From assembly GCF_000018945.1 (NCBI RefSeq), contig NC_011978.1, positions 310,001-374,000 on the forward strand: a stretch of DNA of 64,000 bases. The letters are read 5' to 3'. Positions 56,451 through 63,687 of the stretch are shown in pieces. How positions within the stretch are numbered: position 1 is the stretch's first letter; each line of letters opens with the position of its first letter. The position numbers were made by a program, and so were the translations under genes. This DNA is from Thermotoga neapolitana DSM 4359. GTDB taxonomy: Bacteria; Thermotogota; Thermotogae; Thermotogales; Thermotogaceae. Under the pieces are notes generated by a model. It searched no databases. It had not been told where the DNA came from and saw only the letters and a list, made by a program, of their open reading frames with translations.

Positions 56451-56479
56451 ATTATAGTTTGAAAATGTTTTCATTTCAA
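56451..56479 (-). promoter_or_regulatory. Promoter and operator of the oxidoreductase unit
   Basis: Minus strand: TTGAAA (56474-56479), TATAAT (56451-56456), spacer exactly 17. The spacer is filled by the inverted repeat TGAAAATGTTTTCA (56460-56473), the same palindrome core as at 61337-61352 before the alpha-xylosidase gene. A repressor bound here would block polymerase. The -35 overlaps the stop codon of the upstream membrane-protein gene. Confidence 0.75.
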
Positions 56480-57061: not shown

Positions 57062-59080
57062 TCACTCTTTCAGAAGGATCAAGACATCGAGCGGTTGCAG
57101 CCTCGCCTTTTTTTCATACGAATTTCCTTTGATCAGATCCCTGAACATTCCTTCCGGCAAGTCAACGATCTGCGGTTCATGAGAGTGATTGAAGAGAAAG
57201 TAGAAGGTCTTCTCTCCTTTGACTTTCTTTATCACCTCTACACCATCTGGCGGTGTGATCTCTGCTCTGAGATCGTGTTCTCTCTCTATGAACTTCACGA
57301 GATCCCATACAAGATCGAAAGACGCGGAAGAACCTACGTAGTAAACCCATCCACCACCGTATCTGTTTCTCAACACGGCAGGTTCGTTCATGTAATAGTC
57401 CCTTCCAAATCTTCCGAGCACTTCCGCAGTGGTGGTTTTTATGTAGTCAAACACCAAACTACACTCGTACCTTTTGCCAAACATCAAGATTTCGTTTTTC
57501 TCCTCAGGTGGCAAAGCATCTATTTCTTCCACACAGCCCCCCATAAGATCGCGAAGATAACCTGGATAACCTCCCAGAACAACCTGATCGTCTTCATCGA
57601 CAATACCGCTCATTGTTGTGAGGATCAAGATTCCCCCGTTCGAGACGTAATCTTTCAGCTTCTGTGCAAGTTCTTCGCCCACCATGTAAAGCGCCGGAGC
57701 AACGATGATCCTGTATCCCTCAAAATTCTGATCTTTACCAACAACATCGACTCCAAGACCGGTTTTCACAAGTGCCTTGAAATACTTTTCTGCTTCGTTC
57801 AGGTACTTGAAGTCTATGTTCGGTGTCAGGGTGTCTTCCATCGCCCACCAGCTTTCCCAGTCGAACAGAAGGGCAGTCTGTGAGACTACTCTTGTGTCGA
57901 GAATATCCGATAGGGACTTTATCTCTTCTCCCACTCTCTTCACTTCCTGAAACACCCTCGTCCTGGTGCTGTCAACGTGTGTGATGACGGCCCCGTGGAA
58001 CTTCTCCACACCACCCCTCGACTGTCTCAACTGAAAGAACATGAGAGTTTCGGCTCCATGAGCGAGAGCGTGATAACTCCAGAGTCTCATCTCACCAGGT
58101 CTTTTCTGGGGATTGTACCATCTCCAGCACGCCTGGGAAGGAGACTGTTCCATTAGAACAAAGGGCTGACCTTCTTTCAACCCTCGTATCAGAGAATGTC
58201 TCAACGAGATCACAGAGAAATCCTCTCTGTATCCGGGGTAGTTATCCCACGCTGCAACGTCCATGTGTTTTGCCCATTCGAAGTAGTTCCACTCTTTGAA
58301 CGTGGCTGCGATCAGGTTCGTCGTGACCGGAACGTTCGGGGTGTGTTTCTTTATGGCCCGGTATTCTTCAAGGAAACATTCGAGCATGCTCTGCGTCATG
58401 AACCGTCTGTAGTCGAGGAACAGTTCTGGAAGAACGGATTGGTACCTATCTTTTCTCCAGAAAAGAACGCTCCTTGTTGTTGGAACGGGGATTTCCTCCC
58501 AGCTCGTAAACGTCTGCGACCAGAACCTCGTGTTCCACCTTCTATTCAGTTCATCGAGGGTACCGTACTTTTCCTTCAGCCAGTTCTGGAACTTTGCCCT
58601 GCACGTGTCGCAGTAACAGTAGTTCAGGTATTCGTTGTTCACGTGCCACAGAACAAGTGCGGGATGATCCTTGAAGTGTTCTGCGAGTTTTTCTGCGATA
58701 TTTCTTGCAAAATATCTGTACTTTTCGCTGTTTGGACAGAAGTTCTGTCTGCCACCTTTTTCTCTTTTCACACCGTTCACGTCTGTGAGGAGTATTTCCG
58801 GGTACTTCTGCGTCATCCAGTGAGGAGGAGCGGATGTGGGAGTCGCAAGACAGACGTAGATGCCCTCTCTGTAAAGACGATCCATCACCTTCTCGAAAAA
58901 CGAAAAATCGTAGGTGTTCTCATCCGGTTGCATCAGAGTCCATGAAAAGACACCGAGTGTTACCACGTTGATCCCTGCTTCTTTGAACATCTTGATGTCT
59001 CTTTCAAAGGTTTCCTCATCCCACTGCTCTGGGTAATAGTCCCCACCGTACCAGATCACAGGAAGTTTTGGATTGATCAC
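57062..59080 (-). CDS. GH42 beta-galactosidase
   Basis: 672 residues, full length for family 42. The acid/base Glu is in ALVLWHVNNEYLNYCYCDTC near residue 147, followed at once by the structural zinc cysteines (CYCDTC and the earlier FCPNSEK). The nucleophile Glu is in PFVLMEQSPSQACWRWY near 310. A C-terminal trimerisation domain (IIVAPALYMVGEELAQKLKDYVSNGGILILTTMSG) is present. There is no signal peptide, so it hydrolyses beta-galactosides in the cytoplasm. The start is GTG with GGAGGTG upstream. An intrinsic terminator lies just before it, so expression depends on read-through of the binding-protein message or on a weak own promoter. Confidence 0.93.
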   Translation of the reverse strand: MINPKLPVIWYGGDYYPEQWDEETFERDIKMFKEAGINVVTLGVFSWTLMQPDENTYDFSFFEKVMDRLYREGIYVCLATPTSAPPHWMTQKYPEILLTDVNGVKREKGGRQNFCPNSEKYRYFARNIAEKLAEHFKDHPALVLWHVNNEYLNYCYCDTCRAKFQNWLKEKYGTLDELNRRWNTRFWSQTFTSWEEIPVPTTRSVLFWRKDRYQSVLPELFLDYRRFMTQSMLECFLEEYRAIKKHTPNVPVTTNLIAATFKEWNYFEWAKHMDVAAWDNYPGYREDFSVISLRHSLIRGLKEGQPFVLMEQSPSQACWRWYNPQKRPGEMRLWSYHALAHGAETLMFFQLRQSRGGVEKFHGAVITHVDSTRTRVFQEVKRVGEEIKSLSDILDTRVVSQTALLFDWESWWAMEDTLTPNIDFKYLNEAEKYFKALVKTGLGVDVVGKDQNFEGYRIIVAPALYMVGEELAQKLKDYVSNGGILILTTMSGIVDEDDQVVLGGYPGYLRDLMGGCVEEIDALPPEEKNEILMFGKRYECSLVFDYIKTTTAEVLGRFGRDYYMNEPAVLRNRYGGGWVYYVGSSASFDLVWDLVKFIEREHDLRAEITPPDGVEVIKKVKGEKTFYFLFNHSHEPQIVDLPEGMFRDLIKGNSYEKKARLQPLDVLILLKE

Positions 59081-59094
59081 CCTGTGTTCACCTC

Positions 59095-59119
59095 CAAAAA
59101 ACCCCGGCGAGCGCCGGGG
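59095..59119 (-). terminator. Intrinsic terminator between binding-protein and beta-galactosidase genes
   Basis: Minus strand: CCCCGGCG-CT-CGCCGGGG followed by six T. It lies 8 bp after the binding-protein stop. Confidence 0.9.
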
Positions 59120-59126
59120 TGAATCG

Positions 59127-61103
59127 TCATTTCTGTTCTATGTAGAACTGTATCGGCATGGCGTTCCATGGGCTGAAGAACGGCGTTGCGGTCACCAGTT
59201 CTTCGGGTACATTCTTGAAGTTGTTCTTGACGATAGCGGGAGACACGTCCTCTCCCACAGTCCCTATCATCCAGAGGTTTTCTCTGTGGATCTTCGTCAC
59301 TTCTTTCATGAGTTCCTTTATCTTCTCTGGATCGGGGGTGTTCTGGATCCCTTTCCAGAGGTCAAGCAGCCTTTCGAGTGGCTCTCTTATTCCCTCAGGA
59401 GGCACGATCGCATCTTCCTGCTGGAGGTATTCTTTTAGAGATTCTTCTCCTTCGAGGTAAGAACCTGCCCACTCAGCCCATCCAATGTACCAGGCAGCCG
59501 CGTACTCTGTACTTCCGGGAATGATCCACATGGGATCCACAAGGGGCTGACCTGCCCTGTCCATCACCCACGCCTGGGCATCGAACTCGTGTGCACTGAG
59601 CCTTGAATCGTAGAGGGACCTCTCAAGGTTTTCTATCTCGACCCACACACCGATCTGTTTCCAATACTCTTTCACCATCGTCCAGACATCAACGTGTGTC
59701 TGACCGGTGACCTGTATCGTGAACCTCAGAGGTCTTCCATCTGGAAGGAGTCTGTATTCGTGCTTGTCGTCCCACTTCAGTCCCATCTCATCGAGCAGTT
59801 TGTTCGCCCTGTCTGGATCGTACTCGGCGTACGCCTTTTCCCACTCAGGATCGTAGTATGGAGATCCACTCACGAAGGACGCCTGTCTTGGCTCTGCAAG
59901 GCCGTTGAAGAGTATCTCGTTGATCTCTTCTCTGTTGATGGCAAGTGAAAGTGCCTGCCTGAATCTCACATCCCTGAAGACTTCACCCAGAGCAGGATCT
60001 GGTGGATCAGAAATGTTCAGCATCACCATGCTCACAGAACCGTTGTCGGTACTCCATTTCAACACCTTGTATCCACCGGTCTTTGCGTTCTCGAGAAGGA
60101 GCGGCAGAACACCCGGACCAGGTCCCAGAAGACCTATGTGTCTCCACTGCATGTCGATTTCACCAGAGATCGCCTTCAGTATTATGACCTCACTGCTCTG
60201 AACGTACTCGTGCCTGATCCTGTCGATGTAAGGCAGTTGATTTCCTTCGATATCAACAGCTCAGAAGTACGGGTTTCTCTCGAGGATGTAGAACTGATCG
60301 GTGGGATCAGTCACAGGTTTCCACGGTGTTAGAACTGGTAGATCAAGACTTTCGAGAAAATCGCTCTTGTCGTCGAAGAGATCTACCCACGTGTTGTGCA
60401 CACCGGGTACCATTTTCTTTTCTATCTCTTCCATCGGTGTGTACTTCGGGTGGAACTGTTTCAGGAAGTGCTTCGGTGCCCCTGTGAATCCTCTGTTTGC
60501 CACCTGAAGTAGGAACAGGGCGTAGGGCTGCTTGAATATGAACTTCACCGTGTATGGATCAGGTGCTTCAACCCTATCAAGGAGTCTGTACCAGGCGGGC
60601 TTTGCAGGGGTGAGGTCATCGTTTCCCAGGATGTCCTCTATCCAGAACAGAATGTCTTCCGAGGTGTAAGGATGACCATCTGACCACTTCGTTCCCTCTC
60701 TCAGATGAAAGACGTAGACCTTTCCGTCCTCGAGAATGTCCCAACCTTTCGCAAGACCCGGTACAAACTTTTCTCCGTTTTTATCCCAGAACACAAGGCT
60801 TGCCTGGTTGATCCTGGGAATTCCCCACCTGTCGGATGGTCCCTTCCAGACTCTTCTCCACGTGCCACCGTACTGTCCCACGCTCTCTTCGGGGACCACG
60901 ACGAGCGGCTCTTTCGGAAGTCTTTCTTCGACGGGTGGAAGTTTTCCCTGTTTTACAAGTTCCGCAAGCATGGGTGCTTCATGGAATTTCTCGATCTTCT
61001 TCCCTGTTGCTTTGTAGTAATCTTCGGGTGTTGCATAGACACTCCAGGAAAGCCCTACCACAACAAGCAGCGAGATCATCAAAAAAGCGAAGACCTTTCT
61101 CAT
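59127..61103 (-). pseudogene. Family-5 (oligopeptide/oligosaccharide) solute-binding protein, interrupted by in-frame TGA
   Basis: The two open parts (61103-60261 and 60152-59127) and the 36 codons between them are all in one frame. The only break is TGA at 60263-60261, codon 281. Around it the translation reads NPYF-stop-AVDIEGNQLPYIDRI; in the family the residue after NPYF/Y is Trp, so one TGG to TGA change explains the break. The full chain of 658 residues would have a signal peptide (VFAFLMISLLVVVGLSWSVYA), the N-terminal family pattern, and the C-terminal SLAINREEINEILFNG segment. In T. maritima the equivalent protein is, from memory, thought to bind a xyloglucan-type oligosaccharide. 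A recent nonsense mutation, read-through or a sequencing error are all possible. Confidence 0.9.
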
Positions 61104-61395
61104 ACGAACACACCCCCTTCGATGAATGATCTGCGAAAGATCGTTTCTTTTTTTCTACCAAACAATTTTCCCAACCATTATATTACCACCATCTCCCTCA
61201 GAAAAACAAACACAGAAAAATCCTATTTCCATGGTTTATTCACTGTTATCACAGATTATCGCCGTTTATCGTTCGATCTTCAATTTGAAACCGTATTTCC
61301 TGATTTGAAAATTTCATCAAGGAAATCTGTATTTGTATGAAAACATTTTCATGATAATCTTGATTAAAAATCAACTTCGCTTGAGGAGGGATAAC
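61104..61395. promoter_or_regulatory. Divergent regulatory region with ATGAAAACATTTTCAT operator
   Basis: 292 bp without a gene. The inverted repeat ATGAAAA-CA-TTTTCAT (61337-61352) lies between -35-like and -10-like elements (TATTTG, GATAAT, 17-bp spacer) in front of the alpha-xylosidase gene. It shares its core with the operator at 56460-56473. A weaker copy, TGAAAATTTCA, is at 61306-61316. On the minus strand, TATAAT-like sequence at about 61177-61182 could serve the binding-protein gene, but its -35 is weak. Confidence 0.65.
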
Positions 61396-63687
61396 ATGCG
61401 GTTCATGGAGGGACTCTGGAGATTGAGGGAAGGGGTTCAGGTGTTCAGTGCGAAGCAGATATATGAATACTTCCGCGATGGAAAAAAACTTGTTCTTCAC
61501 GTACCGTTCCAGAGAGTGGTGAGTCGCGGACAAACCCTTCAGGGCCCGGTTTTCGAGATCGAACTTTCCTCGCCGTTTGAAAACGTGATAAGGGTACAAT
61601 TCAGGCATTTCAAAGGTGTTCAGCAGGGACTTCACTTTGAAACGTATCAGGACGAAAGTTTCGTTCCAGAGATCGTCGAAACAAACGACGGTTTGATCTT
61701 TTCCTCGGGGAAAACAAAGGCCGTTGTGAAGAAAGACCCCTTCAGCATTGAGTTCTTCTACGAGGATCGATTCCTCACAAGATCGACCCCCGGATACGCA
61801 ATCGCCCCGGAAGGAAGGTTCTGTTTTGAGAGGCTCCACCTGAGCGTTGGAGAGTGTGTGTACGGCCTTGGAGAAAGGTTTTCTCCGTTTGTGAAGAATG
61901 GACAGAGGGTCATCATGTGGAACGAAGACGCAGGGACGATCTCCGATATGACGTACAAGAACATCCCCTTCTACGTGAGTAACAGAAAGTACGGGGTCTT
62001 CGTGAACGATCCCGGAAAGGTGGATTTCGAGATAGCAACAGAACATGTGGAAAAGGTTCAGTTCAGTGTGAAAGGAGAAACGCTGGATTACTTCGTCATT
62101 GCGGGAGAAGATCTGAAAGAAGTTCTGGAACGTTACACACTCCTCACGGGAAGACCTGAACTTCCACCTGCCTGGAGTTTTGGACTCTGGCTCACAACGT
62201 CCTTCACCACACAGTACGATGAGAAAACGGTGATGGAGTTCGTAGAGGGAATGAAAGAGAGGGATATCCCTCTCAGCGTTTTTCACTTCGACTGTTTCTG
62301 GATGAAGGAATTTCACTGGGTTGATTTCGAATGGAACAGGGAAAACTTTCCGGATCCAGAAGGCCTTTTGAAACGGCTGAAAGAAAAAGGCCTGAAGGTC
62401 TGTGTCTGGATAAACCCCTATGTATCGCAGTTCTCCAGTCTCTTTGACGAAGGAAAGAAAAAGGGCTACTTCCTGAAAAAATCAAACGGAGATGTTTGGC
62501 AAACGGACGACTGGCAACCGGGCATGGCGATCGTTGATTTCACGAATCCAGAAGCCAGAAAGTGGTTCGCTTCGAAACTGGAGAAATTGATAGATATGGG
62601 AGTTGACTGCTTTAAGACGGACTTTGGAGAGAGAATACCCACGGATGTGGTCTATCACGACGGATCCGATCCTGAGAAGATGCACAACTACTACACCTAC
62701 CTGTACAACAAAACGGTTTTCGAAACCATTGAGAGAAAACTCGGAAAGAGAAACGCCGTCGTTTTCGCAAGATCCGCAACGGCGGGAAGTCAAAAATTCC
62801 CCGTTCACTGGGGAGGGGATTGTCTTGCCTCCTACGAGTCCATGGCAGAGACCCTGAGAGGAGGACTCTCTCTATCACTGTGTGGTTTTGGTTTCTGGAG
62901 CCACGACATCGGTGGTTTTGAGGACATCACAACGGCAGATCTGTACAAAAGATGGGTTGCTTTTGGCCTTCTTTCCTCCCACAGCAGGCTTCACGGTAAC
63001 TCGATGTACAAGGTTCCATGGAACTTCGACGAAGAGGCAGTAGAGGTTCTCAGATTTTTCACGAAACTGAAATGCCGACTGATGCCGTACATCTTCTCCT
63101 GTGCAGTTGAAGCACATAAGAAGGGAATTCCCGTCATGAGACCCATGATTTTAGAGTTTCCAGACGATCCCACCTGTTCTTATCTGGACAAACAGTACAT
63201 GCTTGGAGAATCGCTCCTCGTTGCCCCGATCTTCAGCGAAACTGGAGAGGTAACTTATTATCTTCCAGATGGAATCTGGACACATCTTCTCACGGGAGAA
63301 AGGGTGGAAGGAGGACGATGGAGAACGGAAAGGTACGACTATTTCGGTCTTCCTCTCTTTGTGAGACCGAACACCATCCTTCCCACGGGAAACACAGACA
63401 ACAGGCCAGACTACGACTATGCAGACGGTGTCACGCTGAACGTCTTTGAAATATCCAGCAAAACGGCGAATGTCTACAACACATCCGGTGATCTCGAACT
63501 GTCCGTGAAGGTGGAAAGGAAGGAGAATGAAATACACGTTGAAGTTCTGAGGAACTCAGGGAAACCCTGGAAATTGTTCTTCTGGAATGAAAGAGTTGAA
63601 AACTTCGAAGGAGCAGAAATAGAAGAGACAGAAAAGGGAACAGCGGTAATCCTCAGATCTCAGAAAGCCATCCTGGAAGCAAAATGA
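61396..63687 (+). CDS. GH31 alpha-xylosidase (YicI type)
   Basis: 763 residues. The catalytic nucleophile lies in VDCFKTDFGERIPTDVVYHDG near residue 416, the KTDFGE form that marks alpha-xylosidases of the YicI type. The acid/base region is FARSATAGSQKFPVHWGGDCLASYESM near 477, followed by FWSHDIGGFED. N-terminal beta-sandwich GLGERFSPFVKNGQ near 160. No signal peptide: it removes alpha-1,6-xylose from xyloglucan oligosaccharides in the cytoplasm (family knowledge). The ATG at 61396 has GAGGAGGG upstream; a longer frame from 61333 would run through the operator. Its neighbours, a beta-galactosidase, a fucose-isomerase-like protein and a binding protein, fit xyloglucan use. Confidence 0.93.
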   Translation: MRFMEGLWRLREGVQVFSAKQIYEYFRDGKKLVLHVPFQRVVSRGQTLQGPVFEIELSSPFENVIRVQFRHFKGVQQGLHFETYQDESFVPEIVETNDGLIFSSGKTKAVVKKDPFSIEFFYEDRFLTRSTPGYAIAPEGRFCFERLHLSVGECVYGLGERFSPFVKNGQRVIMWNEDAGTISDMTYKNIPFYVSNRKYGVFVNDPGKVDFEIATEHVEKVQFSVKGETLDYFVIAGEDLKEVLERYTLLTGRPELPPAWSFGLWLTTSFTTQYDEKTVMEFVEGMKERDIPLSVFHFDCFWMKEFHWVDFEWNRENFPDPEGLLKRLKEKGLKVCVWINPYVSQFSSLFDEGKKKGYFLKKSNGDVWQTDDWQPGMAIVDFTNPEARKWFASKLEKLIDMGVDCFKTDFGERIPTDVVYHDGSDPEKMHNYYTYLYNKTVFETIERKLGKRNAVVFARSATAGSQKFPVHWGGDCLASYESMAETLRGGLSLSLCGFGFWSHDIGGFEDITTADLYKRWVAFGLLSSHSRLHGNSMYKVPWNFDEEAVEVLRFFTKLKCRLMPYIFSCAVEAHKKGIPVMRPMILEFPDDPTCSYLDKQYMLGESLLVAPIFSETGEVTYYLPDGIWTHLLTGERVEGGRWRTERYDYFGLPLFVRPNTILPTGNTDNRPDYDYADGVTLNVFEISSKTANVYNTSGDLELSVKVERKENEIHVEVLRNSGKPWKLFFWNERVENFEGAEIEETEKGTAVILRSQKAILEAK

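Follow-up and report, generated by a model that had tools for sequence, protein, structure and literature searches.

The closest described counterpart of the locus considered here is the xtpN-bgaL operon of Thermotoga maritima, which is induced by xylose, belongs to the XylR regulon and, in the available part of the source, is filed under xylose and xylan (PMC3750489). XtpN is listed there separately from a full transporter, XtpEFGKL, and the transporter genes gloEFGKL of T. maritima are placed with cel74 and the fuc genes (PMC3750489). With respect to gene loss, the accessible part of a comparison of strains RQ7 and DSM 4359 states that some genes unique to one of these strains arose as the counterpart became a pseudogene; the xtpN-like gene is unnamed in that part (PMC5637354). 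Among the matches listed for Thermotoga xyloglucan use, pseudogenes and premature stops, titles and the beginnings of abstracts do not report a stop in an xtpN-like gene. The locus tag TM0309, which we take to be that of XtpN in T. maritima, gave no literature match.

The window, i.e. the whole stretch of 64 000 nucleotides analysed, corresponds to positions 310001-374000 of contig C1 of the source genome (G000). Six other genomes of the genus were compared (G001-G006), among which G001 is presumably T. maritima MSB8 and G002 presumably T. petrophila RKU-1. The window has an xtpN-like gene of 658 codons for a family-5 solute-binding protein, on the minus strand at 61103-59127, that is broken at codon 281. 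The most probable explanation is a very recent single nonsense mutation, TGG to TGA, in this one Thermotoga strain, presumably T. neapolitana DSM 4359. The gene and its two immediate neighbours are as follows.

60261-60263, minus strand: premature TGA in place of the TGG (Trp) of relatives at codon 281, from the reading frame and orthologue comparison
60264-61103, minus strand: codons 1-280 of the xtpN-like gene, covering the beginning of SBP_bac_5 (PF00496 profile positions 1-140), with an N-terminus that by eye resembles a signal peptide
59127-60260, minus strand: codons 282-658 and the normal TGA stop, with the second part of SBP_bac_5 and without the N-terminal signal (PF00496 profile positions 143-344)
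57062-59080, minus strand: bgaL-like gene for a GH42 beta-galactosidase, immediately downstream and in the same orientation, intact, 672 aa with full Pfam domains
61396-63687, plus strand: GH31 alpha-xylosidase gene, divergent, intact, 763 aa with full Pfam domains

The premature TGA (minus strand, 60263-60261) is preceded by RNPYF and followed by AVDIEGNQLPYID, all in one frame. Apart from codon 281, the frame is open between the ATG at 61103 and the normal TGA at 59129-59127. The 658-residue read-through product is one continuous SBP_bac_5 protein that scores 250 bits against PF00496 (curated cut-off 32.4), and each half alone also passes the cut-off, with 91.5 and 139.3 bits. The two sides of the stop match consecutive stretches of the profile, and therefore the interruption is real in this sequence. 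An earlier reading of the window, made from sequence only, had described a lone in-frame TGA in a family-5 binding-protein gene and proposed that TGG became TGA after NPYF, with the GH31 and GH42 genes intact. The present comparison bears out all three points.

At the level of the orthologues, a DNA search of the seven genus genomes, including the source genome, gave full-length matches of 84-92% identity in G000 and G001-G004, and no match to the xtpN-like gene in G005 or G006. In a search of 45 genomes of the order at the protein level, the orthologues of G001-G004 are stop-free and display 93-97% identity across residues 1-658. The gene is 1977 bases long in all five genomes, with no indel, and codon 281 is TGG in each of the four others; G003 has ATA at the place of the ATG start that is found in the other genomes. 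Close paralogues (loci L002 and L009-L012) also carry TGG at the equivalent of codon 281, whereas distant family members have TTC (Phe), with the exception of L014, which has TGG. At E 1e-100 or better, the order-wide search produced 27 matches, spread over 12 genomes, and only two contain a stop, both in G000. When conserved neighbour genes were compared with those of G001-G004 in their coding frames, an internal stop was found only in the xtpN-like gene; wrong-strand frames do contain stops, as expected. A wider contig scan, which may omit records near the source genome, returned six loci of 41-67% identity in the best segment, none of them from the same species.

The age of the stop was approached by counting substitutions on the branch leading to G000 since its split from G004, with G001-G003 as outgroups; only sites at which all three outgroups agree with the sister were used, and codon 281 was excluded. 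Nonsynonymous and synonymous changes number 10 and 48 on the G000 branch and 11 and 52 on that of the sister G004 (Fisher p 1.0). Under neutrality ∼73-79% of changes should be nonsynonymous, depending on transition bias, and this is rejected by the branch counts. Purifying selection has thus acted along most of the G000 branch. With no relaxation of selection over the gene as a whole, the stop is either very recent or a sequence error, and the proposal of a very recent loss or a sequencing error is upheld in that form by the branch counts together with the TGG in all four orthologues. A weak hint against a brand-new stop comes from an excess of nonsynonymous change in the part after it: the G000 branch has nine nonsynonymous and 25 synonymous changes there and one and 23 before the stop (Fisher p 0.035, uncorrected). 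The same post-stop part in sister G004 shows four and 35, from which G000 does not differ significantly (p 0.12). An older decay of the gene was also considered, and was rejected because the whole-gene branch counts do not support it.

Other transporter genes of the strain provide a setting for this stop. PF00496 matches in 14 genomes of the family number 123, of which two carry a stop, although frameshifts do not enter this count and some genes are represented by more than one match. Both are in G000, where stop-bearing matches amount to two of 10 for PF00496, none of 51 for PF00528 and two of 80 for PF00005 (both at one place near 1214 kb); the other 13 genomes have none among 113 PF00496 matches. 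A stop-enrichment test (2/10 versus 1/∼126, p 0.014) was given no weight, as its denominators are rough and were set after the data had been seen. The second broken family-5 gene of G000 (∼1467781-1469730, L097) has a lone TAG at 1468855 where its orthologue L022, 87% identical, has TGG. It resembles the xtpN-like gene in that a family-5 gene carries one in-frame stop at a Trp codon, but differs in having TAG and not TGA and in its gene neighbourhood. It is flanked by a GH4 gene and an apiosidase-like gene, and the cluster also contains an MFS transporter and genes of the GH2 and DUF2264 families. Around it, 1460-1478 kb is free of PF00528 and PF00005 matches, the nearest being an ATPase match at 1479 kb. 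That two of ten family-5 matches are interrupted by a lone stop suggests that this strain may lose genes of this kind readily. At 1214088-1214536 of G000 contig C1, two overlapping ABC ATPase matches are found in different frames, each with a TGA, and this gene is possibly broken. In G004, the two parts of a family-5 match on contig C3 at ∼6.2-7.6 kb (L013/L017) are in different frames and the match is cut short, so that this gene, too, may be broken.

The main competing explanation is that the TGA of the deposited genome stems from a base-calling or cloning error, and that cells of the strain carry TGG and make a functional protein. We consider this unlikely, yet worth serious attention. An error would be expected to leave a gene with no other disablement and with selection unrelaxed throughout, which is what is seen, and an excess of errors across the genome could account for all of the stops found in G000. 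On the other hand, G000 has another lone stop in a gene of this protein family, a TGA is found at one ABC ATPase place, and substitution errors that create stops are expected to be rare in a finished genome. We infer that the mutation is present in cells and not merely in the deposited record. RNA-seq of a derived strain has been mapped to this assembly, and the accessible part of that report gives no base-level result (PMC7039931).

Two further readings would retain some or all of the protein in the presence of the stop. If the TGA were read through at a useful level, by a near-cognate tRNA-Trp or by recoding, full-length protein would result, and Trp is the residue that UGA misreading would insert. 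Unrelaxed selection on the branch fits such a process, but a recent mutation fits equally. Read-through at this level is very improbable. The source genome has 48 tRNA genes by an RF00005 search. Their anticodons, assigned by ARAGORN in loci covering 47 of them and in the window for the remaining one, include none for TGA, TAG or TAA, although a gene missed by RF00005 would escape this assignment. The normal stop of the xtpN-like gene is also TGA, in five of five genomes, and the RNA fold 3′ of the premature TGA is unremarkable (z −1.54, with 15 of 200 shuffles as good), with no Rfam match in 59000-61500. A code change with UGA read as Trp was rejected, since tRNA-Trp is found only with the anticodon cca and TCA does not occur among the 48 genes. 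Selenocysteine recoding was likewise rejected: the best of nine SelB matches reaches 196 bits (cut-off 242), lies on a 407-codon frame and looks like EF-Tu, and of 30 tRNA-Sec matches the one above the cut-off (47.3 versus 47, at 186098-186182) is a tRNA-Ser (tga) by ARAGORN. Programmed recoding of the TGA thus finds no support, and neither does the low-level read-through that had been suggested from the sequence, though ordinary misreading could still occur. The other reading, in which internal re-initiation yields the downstream half as a separate product with its own function, is scarcely plausible. A 341-codon open frame does begin at an ATG at 60152; but this ATG is an internal Met codon whose Met is also present in the paralogue 5ipw_A, the downstream fragment would have neither signal peptide nor the first part of the fold, and a naturally split gene is found in none of the 27 order-wide protein matches. 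The match in genome G020 is in two pieces, but these are on two contigs, one of them starting at base 4, and it therefore looks like an assembly break.

A very recent nonsense mutation, the preferred reading, would leave a truncated binding protein that is almost certainly non-functional, as it would lack the second half of the ligand-binding fold. What the strain would lose by this depends on the role of the gene. By gene order and the published operon name, the interrupted gene fits XtpN of the xtpN-bgaL operon. As in T. maritima, a family-5 protein gene stands directly upstream of GH42, and the product is 93% identical to that of G001; the difference is the stop at codon 281 in the G000 copy. 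The order of binding protein followed by GH42 is found in G000-G004 and in a Thermotogota MAG locus (L070). The surrounding set consists of GH42, the binding protein, GH31, fucose isomerase-like and alpha-fucosidase genes. GH31 is assigned as an alpha-xylosidase in NCBIfam (1283 bits, cut-off 606), and the fucose isomerase-like gene is open across 561 aa (L023). These enzymes would suit xyloglucan side chains. In G000 an aldolase gene comes after the alpha-fucosidase gene, an arrangement that differs from the association of glo genes with cel74 and fuc genes given for T. maritima in the part of PMC3750489 available.

No PF00528 permease or PF00005 ATPase match is present at 357-389 kb of G000, which extends 12 kb to one side of the gene and 18 kb to the other; XtpN would therefore have to borrow a permease from elsewhere. 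A paralogue resembling XtpE, with 71% amino-acid identity to the xtpN product and the same NPYFWAVD motif, is encoded at 641691-643628 of G000 (L002/L024). It differs from the xtpN-like gene in being intact and in its position beside transporter genes, with two permease and two ATPase genes ahead of it and a GH67 alpha-glucuronidase gene behind it, all of these stop-free. This paralogue and its permease operon would be the natural partner and backup of XtpN, and with its own permease operon, XtpFGKL, the intact XtpE may cover part of the lost uptake. The sequence-only reading held that the stop removes the main solute importer component of a xyloglucan-type cluster. This overstates the loss, because no permease is near the gene and an intact paralogue stands beside a complete permease operon. 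Overall, the locus is an ordinary nonsense allele, or a sequence error, and the sugar-binding protein gene affected is partly redundant. A working XtpN should accordingly not be presumed when the strain is modelled metabolically or tested for growth.

The best of four distinct PDB sequences found at E up to 1e-20 is 5ipw_A, a putative oligopeptide-binding protein, which aligns over residues 23-657 with 1059 bits and carries Trp where the stop occurs. Its segment NPYFWAVDIEGNQLPYIDYVRHEYV is identical to that of the XtpE-like loci L010-L012, and therefore it is likely to be an XtpE-type paralogue and not XtpN.

A second property of the operon concerns the short region between xtpN and bgaL.

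59101-59120, minus strand: intrinsic-terminator-like hairpin of eight pairs with a T run, located after the xtpN stop and ahead of the bgaL ribosome-binding site and conserved in all five genomes

The hairpin is GC-rich. Its stem starts 6 nt downstream of the normal xtpN stop codon, and directly after the hairpin comes the bgaL ribosome-binding site. The inner seven pairs are identical in the five genomes; the outermost pair is A-T in G000 and G004 and possibly G-T in the other three, and one loop base differs between the same two groups. The T run has five residues in G004 and six in the other four genomes. Among the five terminator-like sites of the region (shuffles average 2.7) this one has the most pairs, and its fold of −18.3 kcal/mol has a z of −2.5, which becomes only −0.8 with more flank. 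A ribosome footprint is large enough to cover a stem that starts 6 nt past a stop codon. As the stem starts at this distance, a ribosome terminating on xtpN would overlap the hairpin, and transcription would pass into bgaL. With translation ending at codon 281 and 377 codons untranslated, the hairpin would be free and the intact GH42 gene would be turned down. Perhaps, then, the nonsense codon also lowers bgaL through a translation-sensed terminator that couples enzyme output to binding-protein synthesis in Thermotoga, although we regard this as doubtful. The conserved terminator-like hairpin between the binding-protein and enzyme genes is a small regulatory lead.

At the other end of the gene, the sequence GGGGGTG 5′ of the xtpN-like start is retained, as is an upstream palindrome.

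61337-61352, no strand assigned: palindrome ATGAAAACATTTTCAT in the divergent GH31/xtpN intergenic region, present in five genomes with zero to two mismatches

The palindrome is a probable repressor site. Near-identical 16-base palindromes (ATGAAAANNTTTTCAT, up to one mismatch) are found at 56459-56474, upstream of oxidoreductase genes, and at 61337-61352. The chance expectation for the pair is 0.03, with the pattern taken from one of the two sites. Sites with up to two mismatches occur at both places in L025-L028, and the two palindromes are probably sites of one repressor. With up to two mismatches, the palindrome was not found in the 19-kb stretch that contains the xtpE operon (L024).

Elsewhere in the window, the genes that flank ∼32.4-54.4 kb lie within ∼0.8 kb of each other in all four relatives, and this ∼22 kb stretch looks lineage-specific here. 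The accessible part of the strain comparison lists a CTN_0355-0373 cluster among genes present in only one of RQ7 and DSM 4359, and the ∼22 kb stretch may be that cluster (PMC5637354).
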